IMG/VR virus record: IMGVR_UViG_3300020596_000030 | Span: 1 to 51,691 of that record | Length of the DNA: 51,691 nucleotides | Source: a virus | Reading direction: 5' to 3' (one strand) | Part shown: one piece after another, positions 3 to 51,322 of the stretch | Numbering within the stretch: position 1 is the stretch's first letter | Layout: every line of letters begins with the position of its first letter | The notes under the pieces: model-generated | The model's database searches: none | What the model was told of the DNA's origin: nothing | The model's input: the letters and a program-made list of their open reading frames with translations, nothing else | Made by a program: the position numbers and the translations under genes

Positions 3-638
3 ATGACTTCTGAAGTACGCAAACCTACATTTTTCACCTCAGACCTACATATCGGGCATAAAAGCGTACTGGAGTTTGATAGGCGGCCCTTTAGGGACCT
101 GGAACACATGCACGATGTTCTTATTAGTAACTACAACGCAACCGTACCTGAAAGAGGTATTTGCTACTTTCTCGGTGATATTGGACTAGGTAGTAGTAGT
201 TTAACTAGAGAAGTGGTTACACAAATGAACGGGGTTAAAGTTCTAGTAGTGGGGAACCATGACCGTGGCTACAATAGTTGCTACGAAATGGGGTTTGATG
301 TTGTAATGCACGGCGCAACTATCTATTTAGGTGAGAATAGAATTACAATGAGTCATTGCCCATTGGCCGGCGTGTTTAGAGAAGACACCAACGGTATGAG
401 AAATTCAACAGGTGACGAATGCTGGCACGGTGACATTAAGAATCGTAAATATAGCGTGGCGGACGAAGGACAATTCCATTTATCTGGTCACATACACTCC
501 GGGCCCCACAACGATAAAAAACGCGAACTTGGACGACAATATGACGTTGGTGTGGCTGCAAACAACTATGCACCGGTATCTATTTCACAAATTGAAAAAT
601 GGATAGCCAGGGTACTGAGTGCTACTAGCAAGGTGTAG
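3..638 (+). CDS. Calcineurin-like metallophosphoesterase (canonical order)
   Basis: A 211-residue metal-dependent phosphoesterase. The family's motifs occur in the usual order: D-x-H (SDLHIGH, residues 13-19), GDIG (58-61), GNHD (84-87), a lone His in SHCP (117-120), and GHIH (162-165). These bind two metal ions and cleave phosphomono- or diesters; the natural substrate is not evident. Small phage homologues of this kind are common. The ATG is at the window edge, so its ribosome site cannot be seen, but the distance to the first motif suits a complete N-terminus. It is the useful contrast to the second phosphoesterase at 44057-44770, in which the same motifs are rotated. Confidence 0.85.
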   Translation: MTSEVRKPTFFTSDLHIGHKSVLEFDRRPFRDLEHMHDVLISNYNATVPERGICYFLGDIGLGSSSLTREVVTQMNGVKVLVVGNHDRGYNSCYEMGFDVVMHGATIYLGENRITMSHCPLAGVFREDTNGMRNSTGDECWHGDIKNRKYSVADEGQFHLSGHIHSGPHNDKKRELGRQYDVGVAANNYAPVSISQIEKWIARVLSATSKV

Positions 639-13151: not shown

Positions 13152-13381
13152 GTATTAAGTGTGTTTTAAAGATTAAAGATAAAATTAAAAAGAATTTCCC
13201 TGAAATTAATCTAGTTGATTTCAGTATTCCGCTAGACAACGGAATACCGACACCAAGGTTGATGGATATCTTAGAAGTTGATGTTAATGAAAAATATTAC
13301 CTTAAAAATGAGGTAGTAGAGAAGATTATAAAAGAATCTAAATTTCAAGAGCGTATGGTTTCGTTCAGGAAGGATAAGTGA
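13148..13381 (+). CDS. Unknown 77-residue protein
   Basis: Lys-rich alpha/beta protein without a named motif. Its stop overlaps the GTG of the methyltransferase gene, so the two are coupled. Confidence 0.55.
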   Translation: MSIKCVLKIKDKIKKNFPEINLVDFSIPLDNGIPTPRLMDILEVDVNEKYYLKNEVVEKIIKESKFQERMVSFRKDK

Positions 13382-13860
13382 GGGTAGAGTCAAAAGCATT
13401 GACCGAAACCAGAACAGATGAGGCTAAAAAAGTAAGAAAACAATCTATGAAAGACGGCAAAGATTTTTGTCCAAGAAGAGGTAAGGTGCTGGTTCCAAGA
13501 AATGATGAAGTTTCAAACTGCATAAGTGCTAATATATCGAAAGAAGCTTATATTGTGCAAACCGTAGCCTATTCTAAATCAACTAGAGATAAACATGTAG
13601 ACGTTAGAGGTAAGGTAAATGGTGAGGCCAACACACTTAGTACGGGTGATGGATGTAGTAACCAGAGTACTCAAAATTTTGTAGCCAGGGTAGTGATAGC
13701 CGGAACAGTTGACCTAAGACACGGCGATGAAGACCTGAACTGGAACGGGTATAGAGACGGATACCAGGTCTATGATAAGAACAATCTAGCTCCAGCGTTA
13801 AAGGTCTGTCAAAAAGCATTAAAAATCAACACACTACGTATCACGGCGATGAAGACCTGA
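13378..13860 (+). CDS. DNA cytosine-C5 methyltransferase, 5' part (target-recognition region), frameshifted
   Basis: This 160-residue frame holds what is normally the C-terminal third of a C5 methyltransferase: target-recognition segments such as EVSNCISA and EANTLSTGDGCSNQST. It ends out of frame because the 122 bases at 13720-13841 are repeated at 13842-13963. With one copy removed, this frame runs without a stop through 14648, giving one 382-residue protein in which recognition domain and motifs IX-X precede motifs I-VIII. GTG start coupled to the upstream gene. As sequenced it would not be active alone. Confidence 0.75.
   Translation: MRVESKALTETRTDEAKKVRKQSMKDGKDFCPRRGKVLVPRNDEVSNCISANISKEAYIVQTVAYSKSTRDKHVDVRGKVNGEANTLSTGDGCSNQSTQNFVARVVIAGTVDLRHGDEDLNWNGYRDGYQVYDKNNLAPALKVCQKALKINTLRITAMKT
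13720..13841 (+). repeat. 122-bp tandem repeat, copy 1
   Basis: Identical over all 122 bases to the adjoining copy. The unit is not a multiple of three, so the duplication shifts the reading frame of the methyltransferase gene. Confidence 0.97.
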
Positions 13861-13963
13861 ACTGGAACGGGTATAGAGACGGATACCAGGTCTATGATAA
13901 GAACAATCTAGCTCCAGCGTTAAAGGTCTGTCAAAAAGCATTAAAAATCAACACACTACGTAT
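13842..13963 (+). repeat. 122-bp tandem repeat, copy 2
   Basis: Direct head-to-tail copy of 13720-13841 with no mismatch. Lack of any divergence means the event is recent, under active exchange, or an assembly error. Confidence 0.97.
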
Positions 13964-14081
13964 CCGCAAACTTACACCTACCGAATGCTGTAGGCTTCAG
14001 GGTTACCCTGATAACCATCTAGATAGTGGCATTGATCAAAAAGGTGAAGTAGTTAAAATTTCGGATAATCAAAAATATAAA

Positions 14082-14648
14082 ATGGCAGGTAATGGCGTAT
14101 CCAGCCCCGTATCTGCCCACATACTAAAAACCATGTTCCCTTCTAATGAGGAAATAAGAGTTATGTCTCTTTTCTCTGGGTGCGGCGGGACTGAGCTAGG
14201 CTTTACAGATAGATTCAAGGTAGTTGGGCACTGTGAATTTGATAAACATGCCAGTAGTGTGTTAAAATACCACTATCCAAACATTCCCAATTTTCACGAT
14301 GCAACCAAGTTAGTAGAAAGGGATGATGTACCACAGTTTGATCTTTTAACGTTCGGATTTCCCTGTCAGGCCTTTTCAATTTCCGGTCTACGTAAGGGGT
14401 TTGGGGATGAGAAGAAGGGCAAGCTTATCTTCAATGTCTTTGATATTATTGAAAAACATAAGCCAAAATACATTTTAGCTGAAAACGTTAAAGGACTGCT
14501 AAACCATAATAAGGGTGAAACCTTCATTGAAATATTGAAGGGTTTGAGTAGCTTGGGATATGATGTAGATTTTGAAGTGGTAAATAGTAAAAACTTCGGA
14601 CTAGCTCAAAACAGGGAGAGGGTATTCATCTTTGGAAAGCTTAAGTGA
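14082..14648 (+). CDS. DNA cytosine-C5 methyltransferase, 3' part (catalytic domain)
   Basis: Carries motif X (GNGVSSPV, residues 3-10), then motif I for AdoMet binding (FSGCGG, 31-36), catalytic motif IV (PCQ, 94-96), motif VI (ENV, 134-136) and motif VIII (QNRER, 176-180). The frame is open from 13779; motif IX (RKLTPTECCRLQGYPD) lies in frame just upstream, but the first ATG, at 14082, is past it and has no ribosome site. In canonical enzymes motifs IX-X come last, so this enzyme is circularly permuted. The intact form would methylate C5 of cytosine, probably to hide phage DNA from restriction. Confidence 0.85.
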   Translation: MAGNGVSSPVSAHILKTMFPSNEEIRVMSLFSGCGGTELGFTDRFKVVGHCEFDKHASSVLKYHYPNIPNFHDATKLVERDDVPQFDLLTFGFPCQAFSISGLRKGFGDEKKGKLIFNVFDIIEKHKPKYILAENVKGLLNHNKGETFIEILKGLSSLGYDVDFEVVNSKNFGLAQNRERVFIFGKLK

Positions 14649-30159: not shown

Positions 30160-30780
30160 TTACAAACTAATCACTTGCTTAAGAAACTTAATGTTAAGAG
30201 CTTCTTGATTTTGTTGAGCAGCGTCATCATCTTTACCGGCATCCTTGGCAGATTCGGTGGCATAGGTGGCAGCTTCGATGGCATAATGGGCGGTATAGGC
30301 TGCAGCATAGTCAGCTTCGGTGGCATAGGTAGCATAGGCATAGTTGGCGGCATAGACGGCAAAATAGACGGCAAGGGCAGCGCTGGCGGAATCACTGGAA
30401 ACACAGGCAGCACTGGAAACAAAGCGGGCACTATTGGTAGCGCTTATATGCCTCCTAACCTCTAATAGTTGAGCATATGTCAAGATATTGAAATTATTAA
30501 CGGTTTTAAGAAAATTGATGCAATCACTAAGGCGTTTGTCACCTGGATGCTTATCTTCAAACATATGTAATACACTTTCAGCGCATAGCGTTGCCCATTT
30601 AACCAGTTGATTCCTGATTAATACCTTCCTTGCAATCCAAATTTTATCGTCGTAGTCAAGATCAGGTAAGTCCAGGAAATCATTAAGACTTCCGCTAAAA
30701 TCAGCATGGTGTTCTAGAAAAACCTTATACCTGTCAGCACAGGGTTTAAGGCTTTTCAAGAATTCTTTGTTAATTTGCAT
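30160..30780 (-). CDS. Ala/Tyr-rich Imm5-like protein, intact copy
   Basis: 206 residues. Residues 1-110 are a helical domain with KWATLCAESVLHMFEDKHPG (about 61-80), the core I associate with the putative Imm5 immunity-protein family; residues 115-185 are a low-complexity helical run of Ala/Tyr/Ser; the end is LNIKFLKQV. In bacteria relatives occur near polymorphic toxins and in phages; the function is unproven. Two paralogues lie at 50912-51527 and from 51586. AGGAG ribosome site; own promoter at 30802-30829. Embedded leftward between rightward tail genes, like a moron. Confidence 0.65.
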   Translation of the reverse strand: MQINKEFLKSLKPCADRYKVFLEHHADFSGSLNDFLDLPDLDYDDKIWIARKVLIRNQLVKWATLCAESVLHMFEDKHPGDKRLSDCINFLKTVNNFNILTYAQLLEVRRHISATNSARFVSSAACVSSDSASAALAVYFAVYAANYAYATYATEADYAAAYTAHYAIEAATYATESAKDAGKDDDAAQQNQEALNIKFLKQVISL

Positions 30781-35787: not shown

Positions 35788-37563
35788 ATGTCAGATAATT
35801 TCAAGCAAATTTCTAAAGGGATTGATCTTAGTCCCCAATCCGCGGACCCTACTAGTCCTGTTGATGGCGATTTCTATTTTTCAGATGGAACTGCACGCGC
35901 AATTGGTCTTTGGCAATATAAAGATGCTGTATGGGCAGCTATTGCTGGTACTGGCGGCGTAGGCTCTGGAGGCTCAAGCAGCTTAAAAAATCTAACTATT
36001 TTAGGATATACTCTAAGTGATGAAACTGTATTTAATAGTACCTTCACTACAGATCTAAGTGGCTGGACAGTAGGTGCGGGCAATACGCAGGTAGCTCCTG
36101 GATATTTACAACAGACTTATAGCGGCGGTGGTGGTCCAGCCAGTCAAGTAGTTGCTACTATAACGGGCCGCACGTATTCTTTTTCTGGTACTTCCAGAAT
36201 GACAAGCGGAAGCGGTACTGCTTTTATACGGATTTACAACGGCACCGACAGTTCTGGAACTTTGTTACTACAAACTAGCAACACCACTACAAGTTGGGTA
36301 GTGCAGACTGGAAGTTTTGTAGCCACATCAGGGACCGTATTCATACAGCTATATAACGGGGGCGACCCTGTTACTATGCAGTTCGACGATATTTCGCTAA
36401 AAGAAAGAGTCCCGAACGCATATACGGTAATCAATCCAGACGATCACGGGAAAGTAATTAACATTGACAGTTATTCCGGCAACGTACCCGTAATTCTACC
36501 GGCTCCTAGTGCTGGTTTTATCGTAACAATTAAAGATTACACGGGCAACGCTTCAATCGGTAAAATATCAGTTTCAATGACCGGCAATCTAGATGGTGCT
36601 CCCAGTGTCGAAACCCTCCGTACAAATTACACGGCTGCTACTTTTATTTCAAACGGTACAAATTGGTTTAGGATTGGAAGATTTTACGGAAACGGTATTC
36701 TAGCTAGAGGTATCTTTGGCGGTGGACTACCTAGTAACTCGGCAGTTATTGATTATATATCCATACCTACGGCTTCAAATGCTACTTCATTTGGATCTTT
36801 GTCAGTCGGCCGAATACAATTGGGCGCGTACTCCAGTGCTGTGCGCGGACTATTTGTGGGCGGCTCTACTGGTTCAGATTCAAACCTAATAGACTATGTC
36901 TCTTTTTTAACACTAGCGAACGCGACTTCATTCGGTACTCTTACAGTTGCCAGATTGTATGTAGCCGGATGTGGTAGTGCTACACGAGGTGTAGCGGCTG
37001 GCGGCGACCAAGCTACTGTTCTTAAAAACACAATCGACTATGTAACATTTGCGACAACTGGGAATGCTATTAATTTCGGAAACCTTACTGTAGCTAGATC
37101 CGGTACGGGTGCCCTATCTTCCCCAACTCGCGGGGTTTGGGCTGGCGGTAATGACGGAGCGGAAACTGCGCTCATGGATTACGTAACCATAGCATCTACC
37201 GGAAACGCGACAAACTTTGGTAACTTAACAGCCGCTAGAAACTATGAGTGCGGCGCTTCTAGTTCAACTAGAGGTTTGTTTGCCGGTGGAGGCGCTGCCG
37301 GTGTAGTCAACGTAGATTACATTACAATCGCTACTGCGGCAAATGCCATCAATTTTGGCAGTTTGGCAGCAGCACGAACTCAACTAGCCGGGTGCTCTAG
37401 TCCTTTAAGGGCCGTATTTGCCGGTGGTTATGATGGCGCGGGTGCAGCATTAAATATGGTTTACTTCACTATCGCGTCTCTAGGAAACTCAACAACTTTT
37501 GGTAACTTAACCGTTGCCAGACGAGCTTTCGGCGGCTGTTCTAACGTACATGGAGGCCTCTAA
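35788..37563 (+). CDS. Receptor-binding fibre: CBM-like domain plus six-repeat propeller
   Basis: 591 residues. N-terminal attachment domain (about 1-55, FKQISKGIDLSPQSADP), then a jelly-roll-like insert (about 75-210) ending FDDISLKE, the style of CBM4/9 sugar-binding domains, then a short strand domain, then six repeats of about 48 residues from about 308 (RG-[IVL]-F-x-GG ... DYVTIATTGNA ... FGNLTVAR), ending CSNVHGGL. Six repeats suggest a beta-propeller or kelch-like disc. The N-terminus is nearly shared with the next two genes. Likely binds host surface glycans. AGAGG ribosome site. Confidence 0.7.
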   Translation: MSDNFKQISKGIDLSPQSADPTSPVDGDFYFSDGTARAIGLWQYKDAVWAAIAGTGGVGSGGSSSLKNLTILGYTLSDETVFNSTFTTDLSGWTVGAGNTQVAPGYLQQTYSGGGGPASQVVATITGRTYSFSGTSRMTSGSGTAFIRIYNGTDSSGTLLLQTSNTTTSWVVQTGSFVATSGTVFIQLYNGGDPVTMQFDDISLKERVPNAYTVINPDDHGKVINIDSYSGNVPVILPAPSAGFIVTIKDYTGNASIGKISVSMTGNLDGAPSVETLRTNYTAATFISNGTNWFRIGRFYGNGILARGIFGGGLPSNSAVIDYISIPTASNATSFGSLSVGRIQLGAYSSAVRGLFVGGSTGSDSNLIDYVSFLTLANATSFGTLTVARLYVAGCGSATRGVAAGGDQATVLKNTIDYVTFATTGNAINFGNLTVARSGTGALSSPTRGVWAGGNDGAETALMDYVTIASTGNATNFGNLTAARNYECGASSSTRGLFAGGGAAGVVNVDYITIATAANAINFGSLAAARTQLAGCSSPLRAVFAGGYDGAGAALNMVYFTIASLGNSTTFGNLTVARRAFGGCSNVHGGL

Positions 37564-38954
37564 TGGCTGATAATTTTTGGAATATTAGCAAAGGAATCAG
37601 CCTTAATCCTCAGGCTAGCGACCCGCTAAACCCTACTGATGGCGACGTTTACTATTCTGATGGTACGTTCAGAGCCAAAGGTGTCTGGCAATATAAAGAC
37701 GCAGCTTGGGTAGTAGGCGGCTCTGGAACTGGAGGTATGGCTTCTGGAAGTACTACTTCTGTAAAAACAGCAGACTACACTATTGTTGATTCAGATAAGG
37801 GCAAGATTGTTTTAGTAGACTCAACTACTGGACCTATCGATATCACATTGCCCGCACCTACTGCCGGATTTGTCGTAACCGTTAAAGATTCGGTCGGACT
37901 AGCTGCTACCAATAATATAGTTGTTCTTCCTGTTTCTCCAGCCACGCTAGATACTACCGATGGTCTTGATGTTTTAAATCTAGGATACCAAGCGGTCACT
38001 TATTTGGCAGACGGGACGAATTGGGCCCGTATATCTTATTTTGAAGGTGCGTCTCCAGGGCAGCGTGCCATATTAGGTCTAGGATTTTCAGTTTCGTTAG
38101 GTAGCATTTCTGTCAACAGCATGGATTATTTCAATATCTCGGTATTGGGGAATGCCGCTGATTTTGGAGATTTAACAGTAGCCAGGTACTCAGTAGGTGC
38201 GGTATCGTCCTCTACTCGCGGGGTTTGGGCATCAGGAGATACTGCCGGAGGCGGTTCTGGTGTTGCTACTATGGACTACGTGACAATTGCCACACTCGGA
38301 AATGGCATTAACTTTGGTAATATTTCAGTAACTAGAAACGCACTTTCAGGATGCGGGTCTTCCACCCGTGGGGTTTTTGGAGGCGGTTTAACGTCTGGTG
38401 TTGGTACATACCGCAACACTATTGATTACATTACAATCGCTACTACTGGAAATGCCGTAAACTTTGGCATTTTAACATTAGCTCGCGGACAGTCGACAGC
38501 TTGCTCTAATTCAACCAGAGGAATTTGGGCTGGTGGTAATACTCCTACTAAACAGACTACAATCGACTATATCACAATCGCTACTACTGGGAATGCCACA
38601 AGTTTTGGTGCCCTTGTAGAGGCAAAGACCGAACAGTTTTCGTGCTCAAGTAATACACGCGGAGTCTTTGCCGGTGGAAACGGAGCCGTAAACTATAAAA
38701 CGGTTATCGAATATGTGACTATCGCTACCACAGGGAATACTACAAATTTTGGAAGTTTAACAGTAGGAAGATCCTCTGCTGGAGGCACTTCAAGCACCAT
38801 TAGAGGCGTGTTTATTGGTGGTAACACTGGTGCCGATTCTAACGTCATCGACTACGTAACAATTGCTACTACAGGTAATGCTATTGATTTTGGCGATATG
38901 TTTCAAGCAAGATATTTCGGCGCAGCGGTTTCTGATTGTCACGGCGGCATATAA
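37563..38954 (+). CDS. Receptor-binding fibre paralogue 2 with six repeats
   Basis: 463 residues. Same N-terminal domain (FWNISKGISLNPQASDP), same strand domain (PTAGFVVTVKDSV) and about six 48-residue repeats from residue ~168; the first is divergent (RAILGLG). Lacks the CBM-like insert. Ends DCHGGI. The ATG shares one base with the previous stop (TAATG). Tandem copies may form mixed trimers or give a choice of receptors. Confidence 0.7.
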   Translation: MADNFWNISKGISLNPQASDPLNPTDGDVYYSDGTFRAKGVWQYKDAAWVVGGSGTGGMASGSTTSVKTADYTIVDSDKGKIVLVDSTTGPIDITLPAPTAGFVVTVKDSVGLAATNNIVVLPVSPATLDTTDGLDVLNLGYQAVTYLADGTNWARISYFEGASPGQRAILGLGFSVSLGSISVNSMDYFNISVLGNAADFGDLTVARYSVGAVSSSTRGVWASGDTAGGGSGVATMDYVTIATLGNGINFGNISVTRNALSGCGSSTRGVFGGGLTSGVGTYRNTIDYITIATTGNAVNFGILTLARGQSTACSNSTRGIWAGGNTPTKQTTIDYITIATTGNATSFGALVEAKTEQFSCSSNTRGVFAGGNGAVNYKTVIEYVTIATTGNTTNFGSLTVGRSSAGGTSSTIRGVFIGGNTGADSNVIDYVTIATTGNAIDFGDMFQARYFGAAVSDCHGGI

Positions 38955-38956
38955 TT

Positions 38957-38968
38957 GTGGTATTATAA
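38957..38968 (+). promoter_or_regulatory. Extended -10 promoter GTGGTATTATAA
   Basis: Exact consensus between fibre paralogues 2 and 3, 13 bases ahead of the GTG start, allowing paralogue 3 to be expressed separately. Confidence 0.6.
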
Positions 38969-38980
38969 TAAGAGGTTAAT

Positions 38981-40333
38981 GTGTCAAAGAATTTTTTCAA
39001 AATAAATCAGGGAATTAACCTTAATCCCCAATCTACAGACCCGGCGAATCCTATCGAGGGTTCTTTTTACTATTCTGACGGTACTGTTAGAGCTAAGGGA
39101 TTGTGGCAATATAAGAGCAGTGTTTGGACGATAGTAGGTACTGCCGGTGGATTAGCTTCTGCTGGTGCTAGTTCTATAAAAACAGCAGATTACACTGTCG
39201 TATCTACGGATAACGGCTCTGTTATTGAAGTTAATTCAACCTCAAATGACATTACCATAACCCTACCGACTGGACTTGTTACCGGATTTATAGTAACCGT
39301 AAAAGATCTATACGGGACGGCTGCGACTAAAAAGATTTTTGTCAATCCAAGCTCAGCCCAAATTGACGGAGCCAGCGGAATTGACGTTATTGATGTAGCT
39401 TTTAACTCTGTTAGCTACATTTACGACGGTACGTCCTGGTCTAGATTTGCAAATTTTGCAGGAGATAGTACCTCTGTTAGGGGTTTGTTTGGCGGTGGCG
39501 ATGCGCCTTCATCTGCTATTGAATATATATCAGTAGCAACAACAGGTAACGCTATTAGTTTTGGAAATTTGACTCGCACCGGTTATTTTGTCGCCTCTAT
39601 GGGAAATAGAACGCGAGGTTTGTGGGCGGGATCGTCTGCGTCAAATATTATTGACTACGTGACCTTCTCCACTCTTGGGAACGCCATTGACTTTGGTGAC
39701 CTTACAGTTGCTAGGTCTGAGACATCTGCCACAGCTAATAACACACGCGGGTTGGTGGTCGCGGGTACTAATGCCGGAAGGAGAGACATAATAGACTATG
39801 TGACTATTGCTACCTTAGGTAACGCTGTGGATTTTGGAGATTTAACAGGTCTAAGGACTGGTGTTGCAGCATGTGCCTCCACCACACGCGCTATCTTTTC
39901 TGGTGGTAACACACCTTCTGTTTTGAATCTCATCGACTACGTGACCATTGCGACTATCGGAAATGCCACAAGTTTTGGCACTTTGGCCAACTCTAGGGAA
40001 TACTCTGCCGCATGTTCGTCTTCTACCAGGGCAATGATTGGCGGCGGTGACGATGGCCCCGTAGTTCTTGCCGCAGAATATTTGACAATAGCCACTCTTG
40101 GAAACGGAACAACTTTTGGTAACTTGACCCTTGGACGGTGGGGTTTAGCTTCCTGCTCTAGTCAGGTCAGAGGCGTTTGGGCTGGAGGTTTCAATGCCGC
40201 TGCATCTTTGTCTTACAACACAATAGACTACGTAACTATAGCTACTACTGGCGCAGCAACAAGCTTTGGTACTTTAACAGTAACAAAAGCCGGTTTAGCT
40301 GGTTGCTCTAACGGACACGGTGGCCTAACCTAA
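38981..40333 (+). CDS. Receptor-binding fibre paralogue 3 with six repeats
   Basis: 450 residues, GTG start behind AAGAGG. N-terminal domain FFKINQGINLNPQSTDP, strand domain, then six repeats from about residue 167 (RGLFGGG, RGLWAGS, RGLVVAG, RAIFSGG, RAMIGGG, RGVWAGG) ending CSNGHGGL. No CBM-like insert. Its separate promoter is the only regulatory difference seen from the other two. Confidence 0.7.
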   Translation: MSKNFFKINQGINLNPQSTDPANPIEGSFYYSDGTVRAKGLWQYKSSVWTIVGTAGGLASAGASSIKTADYTVVSTDNGSVIEVNSTSNDITITLPTGLVTGFIVTVKDLYGTAATKKIFVNPSSAQIDGASGIDVIDVAFNSVSYIYDGTSWSRFANFAGDSTSVRGLFGGGDAPSSAIEYISVATTGNAISFGNLTRTGYFVASMGNRTRGLWAGSSASNIIDYVTFSTLGNAIDFGDLTVARSETSATANNTRGLVVAGTNAGRRDIIDYVTIATLGNAVDFGDLTGLRTGVAACASTTRAIFSGGNTPSVLNLIDYVTIATIGNATSFGTLANSREYSAACSSSTRAMIGGGDDGPVVLAAEYLTIATLGNGTTFGNLTLGRWGLASCSSQVRGVWAGGFNAAASLSYNTIDYVTIATTGAATSFGTLTVTKAGLAGCSNGHGGLT

Positions 40334-44042: not shown

Positions 44043-44057
44043 TTTATATTGTACCAC
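44043..44057 (-). promoter_or_regulatory. Leftward extended -10 promoter variant GTGGTACAATATAAA
   Basis: TG-G-TACAAT on the minus strand; overlaps the stop of the permuted phosphoesterase. Heads 44032 down to the GMP reductase. Confidence 0.5.
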
Positions 44058-44770
44058 TAGTAATCAAACACGCTTTTTATAGTTCCCAAGTGCAAATCAG
44101 ACACAAACCATAGGTCAATTTCCTCCACATATACAGGGTTAAACTTCTTACCGTGTAGGGAAGATCCGCAGTTAATAACTCGGTATTTCTTATTTTTATA
44201 TATGATTTTCTCATCAAAAGACAAATGTGTATGCCCAGTTATTACGATATCTACATCTTCTGACAACATGTTTCTTTTGTCAATTCCCTCTAGGGTAGAA
44301 AGAGCCTGCGCATAGGCTCGTTTCCCGTGCAAGGAAAAAAACTTGTTAAAAACGCTGAATACAAACTCTTCAATATCGTGCATAATACTGTCTTCGCTAA
44401 ACTGTACATCCCAGTACTTCTCATACTCCATAATCTTGGCTTGGTTAAACGTGAATTTAAGCTGATGCCCGTGAAGTGCTAAGACGTTTTTGTTTTTGTA
44501 AAATTCCTGGCTATCGCTAAAGTTACGCCTTAATAGTGCGGCATCGTGGTTTCCAACTACAAAAGAAACAATGTGTTTCCACCACTTTTCTGTTCTTTTT
44601 AGATAGTCACGTTCCGATTCGCCTACAATTGCACTTCTTTTTAGGTCAAATATATCTCCTACTCCGACAATTTTACCGCTGTACTTATTAAGAAAATGCT
44701 CTGGGCTATGAATGGTAGTCTGGAGTCTTTTATAGGAGTTTTTAGTTTCCCTAAGCAGTCTTGATAGCAT
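44057..44770 (-). CDS. Circularly permuted calcineurin-like metallophosphoesterase
   Basis: 237 residues. All five metal-site motifs of the family are present but rotated: GDIFD (38-42), GNHD (73-76), LHGHQ (99-103), GHTH (179-182), and only then D-x-H in FVSDLHLG (223-229), which normally opens the protein. Joining the C-terminal SDLHLGTIKSVFDY to the N-terminal 37 residues rebuilds the usual spacing to GDxxD, so the fold can be whole with its ends moved to the loop after the first helix. The start at 44770 lies inside the upstream gene. Catalytic residues look intact; substrate unknown. Confidence 0.75.
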   Translation of the reverse strand: MLSRLLRETKNSYKRLQTTIHSPEHFLNKYSGKIVGVGDIFDLKRSAIVGESERDYLKRTEKWWKHIVSFVVGNHDAALLRRNFSDSQEFYKNKNVLALHGHQLKFTFNQAKIMEYEKYWDVQFSEDSIMHDIEEFVFSVFNKFFSLHGKRAYAQALSTLEGIDKRNMLSEDVDIVITGHTHLSFDEKIIYKNKKYRVINCGSSLHGKKFNPVYVEEIDLWFVSDLHLGTIKSVFDY

Positions 44771-44966
44771 CTTTAAATCCCAGAAGTTCGTGCAGTTGTT
44801 CAACCGTAAGCTCTTGATTTTGCAAAGCCATTTCAACCCTAGACATAGCAGAAGTGTACTCCAGTAGATCAATCATGTTCTTATTGACTACAACACTACC
44901 GTCAACACCCATCTTTAGGCACTGCTTAAGTCTTTGAATTGATACATTTAATTGGATACCACTCAT
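44751..44966 (-). CDS. Unknown 71-residue helical protein
   Basis: Mostly helical, Leu/Glu-rich. ATG at 44966 behind GGGGAG. Overlaps the phosphoesterase start by 20 bases, so translation is probably coupled. No known domain. Confidence 0.55.
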   Translation of the reverse strand: MSGIQLNVSIQRLKQCLKMGVDGSVVVNKNMIDLLEYTSAMSRVEMALQNQELTVEQLHELLGFKDAIKTA

Positions 44967-44988: not shown

Positions 44989-45582
44989 TTATAGTGCTTT
45001 GTCTGAATTGTCTACTATTACTTTGTGAACAATTCCTATTTCCTTAGCCATTACGGCTCTGTAAAAACGGTCGTTTGTCTTAATCAAATGATCCCATTGT
45101 TTTTCGGTCTTATTGGTGTGTTTTGCATAAATAGCACATAATTGCTTATGTATGCGCTTACACTCTTCAGCTTCGTCAACTAAATCCAAAAACACCTTGC
45201 CCTTGGCAGAACTGCTAACCGAGTGAAACATGAATACACAGTTTTCGTACATGTAGCGGTTATCACCGGCTAGAAAGATAATAGACGCACCAGACATAGC
45301 GCAACCAATGTTGTATGTGTTGATTACAACGCCAGATAGTGAGTGAATAAAGTCGTATAATCCAATACTTGAATAAGGATCGCCGCCGGTGCTGTTAATG
45401 TAGATGTCAATCGGCTTTTCTAGGGTCTTAGCCATCATTAGCTGGATACCCTTGATAACAACACCAGCACTTTCTGGGTCAATGTCGGTAAACAAGTGAA
45501 TAATCCTGTCATCAACATTAACACCTGAGTTTATGAAGTTGTCAGTGTTGTCTGTATTAAGGCGCTTTGCTGTGCGTTTCAT
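44989..45582 (-). CDS. clpP: ClpP-family serine protease
   Basis: 197 residues, ClpP-sized. Catalytic triad visible: Ser97 in GCAMSGAS, His120 in FMFHSV, Asp171 in TNDRFY; the oxyanion loop STGGDPYSSIGLYD is typical. ClpP degrades proteins with a partner ATPase, or in phages can act as prohead protease. Its place between primase and small genes, not beside capsid genes, favours a role in host or phage protein turnover. ATGA overlap with the primase gene. Confidence 0.85.
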   Translation of the reverse strand: MKRTAKRLNTDNTDNFINSGVNVDDRIIHLFTDIDPESAGVVIKGIQLMMAKTLEKPIDIYINSTGGDPYSSIGLYDFIHSLSGVVINTYNIGCAMSGASIIFLAGDNRYMYENCVFMFHSVSSSAKGKVFLDLVDEAEECKRIHKQLCAIYAKHTNKTEKQWDHLIKTNDRFYRAVMAKEIGIVHKVIVDNSDKAL

Positions 45583-50911: not shown

Positions 50912-51322
50912 TTAAGCACCAGTTACTTGTTTAAGAAATTTAATATTTAAGGCTTGTTGTTGTTTAACACCATCATAGGTGTCACCGTATACTATAGCAA
51001 AATTGGTAGCATGGGCAGAGGTGGAAGTGCTGGCAGCACCGGCAGCATAGAAAGCAGAATGGTCAGCGGCAGCAAGGGCAGCATGGGCCGCATAGCGGGC
51101 AGCAAGGGCAGCATATTCGGCACCACTAGAGTCATATACTGTACTGTAGGCAGCATCATAGGCATCATAGGCAGCGGCAGCATAACTCTCAACCCCTAAC
51201 CTTTCAGTATCAGTCAAACTATTGAAATCATTAACAGATTTAAGAAAATCGATGCAATTACTAAGACATTTATTGCCTGGGCACTGTTCTTCAAACATAT
51301 GTACAACACATATGAACAACAC
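50912..51322 (-). CDS. Imm5-like paralogue 2, 3' part after frameshift
   Basis: Holds HMFEEQCPGNKCLSNCIDFL and the Ala/Tyr-rich helix, ending LNIKFLKQV like the intact copy at 30160. In frame only from a GTG at 51322 or the ATG at 51298. Removing one 13-base unit at 51296-51321 joins it to the 5' part, giving a 200-residue protein close in length to the intact copy. Confidence 0.6.
   Translation of the reverse strand: MLFICVVHMFEEQCPGNKCLSNCIDFLKSVNDFNSLTDTERLGVESYAAAAYDAYDAAYSTVYDSSGAEYAALAARYAAHAALAAADHSAFYAAGAASTSTSAHATNFAIVYGDTYDGVKQQQALNIKFLKQVTGA

Follow-up and report, generated by a model that had tools for sequence, protein, structure and literature searches.

A putative naturally circularly permuted LpxH-like metallo-phosphoesterase encoded by a virus

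The DNA analyzed here (the window) is the entire IMG/VR virus record IMGVR_UViG_3300020596_000030, 51,691 bases in length. Among annotated phage records, Myxococcus phage Mx1 matches it best, with RecA-like and baseplate proteins 37-39% identical. A series of minus-strand genes in the window encodes a RecA-like protein, a DnaB-like helicase (PF03796), proteins of unknown families, a ClpP-like protein (PF00574), a 75-aa protein and a 237-aa phosphoesterase, designated here as P0001; after the P0001 gene, the series goes on with two small proteins, ThyX (PF02511) and an IMPDH/GMP-reductase-like enzyme (PF00478). The ClpP-like protease adjoins replication genes both in the window (44989-45582, minus strand) and in Mx1 (L002:19702-20265, minus strand), the two proteins being 25% identical. 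In the Mx1 region that matches via the RecA-like neighbor, no metallo-phosphoesterase (MPE) gene was found beside the ClpP-like gene, and the phosphatase annotated in Mx1 has the ordinary motif order.

Several other genes of the window deserve mention. At 3-638 (plus strand), the window encodes another calcineurin-like phosphoesterase, which has the ordinary motif order (PF00149, 22.0 bits, cut-off 21.5). Two proteins rich in Ala and Tyr, encoded on the minus strand at 30160-30780 and 50912-51322, resemble each other at their ends (ALNIKFLKQV) and look like paralogues; the first of them matches PF21805 (Imm5_like) with 29.1 bits (cut-off 25). Three successive paralogous genes with WAGG / IDYVTIATxGNA-like repeat units (35788-40333, plus strand) look like a cluster of Kelch-like tail proteins. 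Furthermore, a C5-cytosine DNA methyltransferase (13378-14648, plus strand) also looks circularly permuted: a sequence resembling motifs IX/X (RKLTPTECCRLQGYPD...MAGNGVSSPVSAHIL) comes ahead of motif I (FSGCGGTELGF), and the PF00145 match is divided into two stretches. Circularly permuted C5 methyltransferases are an already known kind. The methyltransferase region contains an exact 122-base tandem duplication (13720-13963, copies 100% identical), which shifts the upstream part to another frame and so splits the methyltransferase into two ORFs; given its exact length, it could be an assembler k-mer artefact.

The MPE superfamily is a large group of hydrolases, including Mre11, LpxH, PP1/calcineurin and ApaH, and a DxH motif standing first is taken as its hallmark. 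The P0001 gene is an open frame at 44057-44770, the coordinates given in the sequence-only reading of this DNA; it lies on the minus strand, with ATG at 44770, and its product matches PF12850 and PF00149. Its motifs follow in the order GDIFD (residues 38-42, 44645-44659; metal ligand D39), GNHD (residues 73-76, 44543-44554; ligand N74 and general acid H75), HGH (residues 100-102, 44465-44473; ligand H100), GHTH (residues 179-182, 44225-44236; ligands H180 and H182) and, at the extreme C-terminus, SDLHLG (residues 224-229, 44084-44101; D225 and H227), all on the minus strand, with 8 more residues before the stop. The 237-aa frame thus bears out the earlier claim that the DxH motif comes after GDIFD, GNHD and GHTH. 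SDLHLG corresponds to what is ordinarily the first motif, as judged from its match to profile positions 2-16, from a second protein (P0002) and from a predicted strand, all described below. In an alignment of 11 sequences (P0001, P0002 and nine ordinary LpxH-like proteins), G38, D39, the whole GNHD motif, H100, G101, G179, H180 and H182 are invariant. The new N-terminus (residues 1-10, 44741-44770, minus strand) lies just past the place of the ordinary DxH, residue 9 of the structural model falling on LpxH residue 12.

All motifs characteristic of the superfamily (GDxxD, GNHD, H, GHxH and DxH) are therefore present in P0001, but not in the canonical order with DxH first; as DxH is the last motif, the protein is classed as a permuted variant and not as a canonical superfamily member. 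An N-terminal DxH is not regained from any in-frame start further upstream: the extension by 34 codons up to a TTG at 44872 lacks a D-x-H and overlaps the upstream gene. By a rough composition estimate, a 50-residue tail would contain [ST]D[LIFT]H[LIVFM]G by chance with a probability of ~9e-5. The earlier statement that rejoining the ends gives normal motif spacing proved inexact. The distance from D225 to D39 in the rejoined protein is 51 residues, versus roughly 30-39 in the ordinary relatives counted, because the new N- and C-terminal tails add residues.

The protein was compared with profiles both as it stands and rotated. Native P0001 matches PF12850 with 31.9 bits (cut-off 27) and PF00149 with 25.5 bits (cut-off 21.5), with alignments that do not begin before profile positions 30 and 37. 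If the last 19 residues are put in front, the PF00149 score rises from 25.5 to 32.5 bits and the match starts from profile position 4. A home-made profile, built from 21 ordinary-order LpxH-like relatives only, aligns with native P0001 in swapped halves: positions 31-217 match residues 29-202, and positions 2-16 match residues 217-231. Two such segments in swapped order are, at the level of sequence, the signature of a circular permutation. With this profile, the whole native protein scores 41.4 bits, whereas 1000 versions with a shuffled tail average 34.7 bits and do not exceed 36.4, and the tail alone (the last 25 residues) scores 13.9 bits, the maximum in 1000 shuffles being 5.0. Rotation raises the total from 41.4 to 48.4 bits. 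With the larger home-made profile, the two pieces of rotated P0001 stay separate, owing to the extra residues that separate DxH from helix 1 after rejoining, and the best single stretch scores no higher; an earlier profile with fewer relatives gave only a small rotation gain (from 9.8 to 13.1 bits).

A scan of IMG/VR looked for HTH and, 35-45 residues further on in one frame, [S/T-like]DLHxG, in two histidine codon versions. One of the 30 stretches obtained from both versions encodes an MPE; there is no MPE among the matches of the CAC-codon version. The corresponding protein, P0002, is encoded by a different virus (L017:7372-8085, contig IMGVR_UViG_3300002097_000354), and consists of 237 residues with GDIKE, GNHD, HGHQFD, GHTH and the terminal SDLHLGDKGKADDFWTI. 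P0001 and P0002 share 25-27% identity and have an equal cut, an equal length and, by direct count, the same rejoined spacing of 51 between the DxH aspartate and the GD aspartate. Both proteins keep intact metal-ligand motifs, and the motifs following DxH do not vary among the ordinary relatives. When P0002 is rotated, its profile stretch gains in score (79.5 to 88.2 bits), which no shuffle of the tail equalled (0 of 500), and its pieces merge into one profile stretch, unlike those of P0001. Genes for tail-type proteins, small membrane proteins and a DNA methylase-like protein (read by eye) surround P0002; as the neighbors of the two proteins differ, the gene context is not conserved.

The presence of the same rearrangement in another virus makes the permutation of P0001 look real and selected. 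It also bears on whether the gene might be a decayed or misassembled one, i.e., an ordinary copy that lost its start, with the start of a truncated neighbor as its tail and without a function. The exact 122-base repeat described above, which splits another gene, shows that local duplication or assembly error occurs in this contig. However, a second virus contig carries a protein with equal cut, length and intact ligands, and the P0001 frame is intact and packed between its neighbors, with no direct repeats around it; we consider decay or misassembly very improbable.

P0001 and P0002 are the two permuted members found. Relatives of P0002 are present in 61 of the 892 genomes searched, which were taken from three groups; all relatives fetched and read have DxH before GNHD. 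The permutant pattern scans were limited to GHTH-type and SDLHxG-type motifs at near-equal spacing. Within this scope, no permuted MPE was found in 84,980 species genomes (CAT-codon motif version; matching genomes partly read), the matches being ordinary MPEs, unrelated proteins or chance matches only. Likewise, tblastn, which is weak at this divergence, revealed no permuted MPE in INPHARED or PLSDB; with P0001 as a query, it gave nothing in INPHARED (native and rotated) or in PLSDB (native). Phmmer searches against PDB sequences gave nothing for native P0001, rotated P0001 or P0002, and related-locus searches with P0001, its ClpP-like and DnaB-like neighbors and a P0001/MPE1 alignment revealed no relatives. 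No description of a natural permutant of the MPE superfamily was found in the literature searched, subscription journals being largely outside it. The sequence-only reading had suggested that the arrangement may be new, and no known member already in this order turned up in IMG/VR (besides the P0002 contig), the 84,980 genomes, INPHARED, PLSDB or this literature. The permuted MPE is a rearranged form of a very common superfamily, and the permutation itself is apparently undescribed.

In a tree built on core columns only, without DxH, P0001 and P0002 group together (support 84/79), with P0001 as a long branch; at this support and 25-27% identity, the two proteins are only weakly linked. This grouping suggests a single permutation event for both proteins; because of the long branch, one origin is suggested rather than shown. 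An ordinary copy was probably tandemly duplicated, fused and trimmed. We would only tentatively extend this to a distinct viral family of permuted MPEs that arose once by duplication, fusion and trimming, spread between unrelated phages, and profits from the C-terminal position of the strand; in that case, the advantage might be, e.g., a regulated completion of the active site.

The structure of P0001 was predicted with AlphaFold2 from the 11 sequences, nine of which, from ordinary LpxH-like proteins, had been truncated behind their DxH, so that only P0002 informed the tail. An alignment that lays N-terminal fragments of ordinary MPEs on the P0001 tail was left out of the folding, as it would have hinted at the answer. 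Prediction from the single sequence gave a pLDDT of 32, and the 11-sequence model reached a pTM of 0.61 and a mean pLDDT of 58.5. In this model, residues 171-200 have a pLDDT of 75-83 and residues 211-230, which include the DxH strand (residues 220-224), of 71-82; the lid or helical insertion (about 106-150) is below 50. Foldseek ranked LpxH first. In VIA-align, residues 9..220 of the model were superposed on residues 12..233 of E. coli LpxH (Z 9.9, rmsd 3.5, 156 residues), and LpxH occupies most of the top structural-match rows (Z 9.0-9.9). The DxH of E. coli LpxH is at residues 8-10; the P0001 model therefore starts right behind the position of the LpxH DxH, and its own DxH comes at the point where the LpxH chain stops. 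With moderate confidence, the model assigns P0001 an alpha-beta-beta-alpha MPE fold, and the tail is likely to extend to the metal site.

Vps29 chains are also among the structural matches, and some MPE-fold proteins, e.g., Vps29, have been described as lacking catalysis. It could be argued from these matches that SDLHLG occurs at the C-terminus by chance and that P0001 is a regulatory or inactive MPE without strand beta-1. Yet the tail scores far above all 1000 shuffles and recurs in P0002, and every other metal ligand is retained in P0001; a chance motif thus appears the least credible explanation of those considered here. The circular permutation proposed from the sequence gains support from the split profile match, the rotation gain, the same break point in P0002 and the predicted LpxH-like fold. 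We conclude that P0001 is very probably a naturally circularly permuted LpxH-like MPE.

At the sequence level, strand beta-1 with its D-x-H metal pair has been moved from the N-terminus to a position immediately after the final strand of the domain; the chain thus begins at helix alpha-1 and ends 8 residues past SDLHLG. Judging from the fold, motif conservation and the model, the DxH strand (DLWFVSD) probably pairs with this final strand (PVYVEE) in a hairpin. This hairpin would place D225 and H227 beside D39, N74, H100, H180 and H182, with H75 as a proton donor, and would rebuild the two-metal site within a single chain. Instead, the DxH strand, which lies at the chain end behind a short link, might be swapped between subunits and complete the site of a second one, the enzyme being active as a dimer only; sequence alone does not separate completion within a chain from completion between chains. 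Nevertheless, the monomer model already forms the DxH strand with fair confidence, and a tight turn (EID in P0001, DNNN in P0002) precedes this strand and favors a hairpin within the chain; a domain swap is improbable.

The permuted P0001 shares with LpxH the four later motifs, the helical insertion between HGH and GHTH, and an NxG segment after GHTH. It differs from LpxH in having DxH at the C-terminus and not first, and rotated P0001 scores 13.8 bits with the LpxH NCBIfam equivalog, versus a cut-off of 134. By this score, P0001 is not an LpxH orthologue, and there is no reason to assume lipid X as its substrate. E. coli LpxH has GNRD where P0001 has GNHD. The nearest ordinary relatives of P0002 found by sequence are LpxH-like phosphoesterases of bacteria with GNHD and either HGHQFD or HGDVFD (e.g., L123, L104, L106, L061, L120 and L122), L104 being 31% identical to it and L123 possessing NSGCW and HGHQFD as in P0002. 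The P0001 C-terminus (IDLWFVSDLHLGTIKS) is very similar to the N-terminus of L061 (IDILVISDLHLGTYGS). In all fetched members of this group DxH comes first, unlike in P0001 and P0002.

The substrate of P0001 is most likely a phosphomonoester or phosphodiester, hydrolyzed with the help of Mn2+ or a similar metal. Its neighbors (ThyX, the IMPDH/GMP-reductase-like enzyme, and the ClpP-like, DnaB-like and RecA-like proteins) weakly hint at a nucleotide or nucleic acid as the substrate.

Other circularly permuted enzymes include DNA methyltransferases and YjeQ/YloQ GTPases (cited in PMC2213659); their active site is kept, as is predicted for P0001, but they belong to unrelated superfamilies. Many non-sequential alignments have been noted within the metallo-dependent phosphatase fold d.159 (PMC2213659), which we read as internal symmetry of the fold and not as described permutants.

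A natural permutant whose first metal-binding strand comes last implies that a two-metal site need not be complete until the end of synthesis. The permuted MPE offers a natural test case for folding order, as well as a template from which split or switchable phosphatases may be built. Searches that depend on motif order may miss such proteins. Furthermore, as two permutants with one cut occur in different viruses, single versus repeated origin of the permutation becomes testable.
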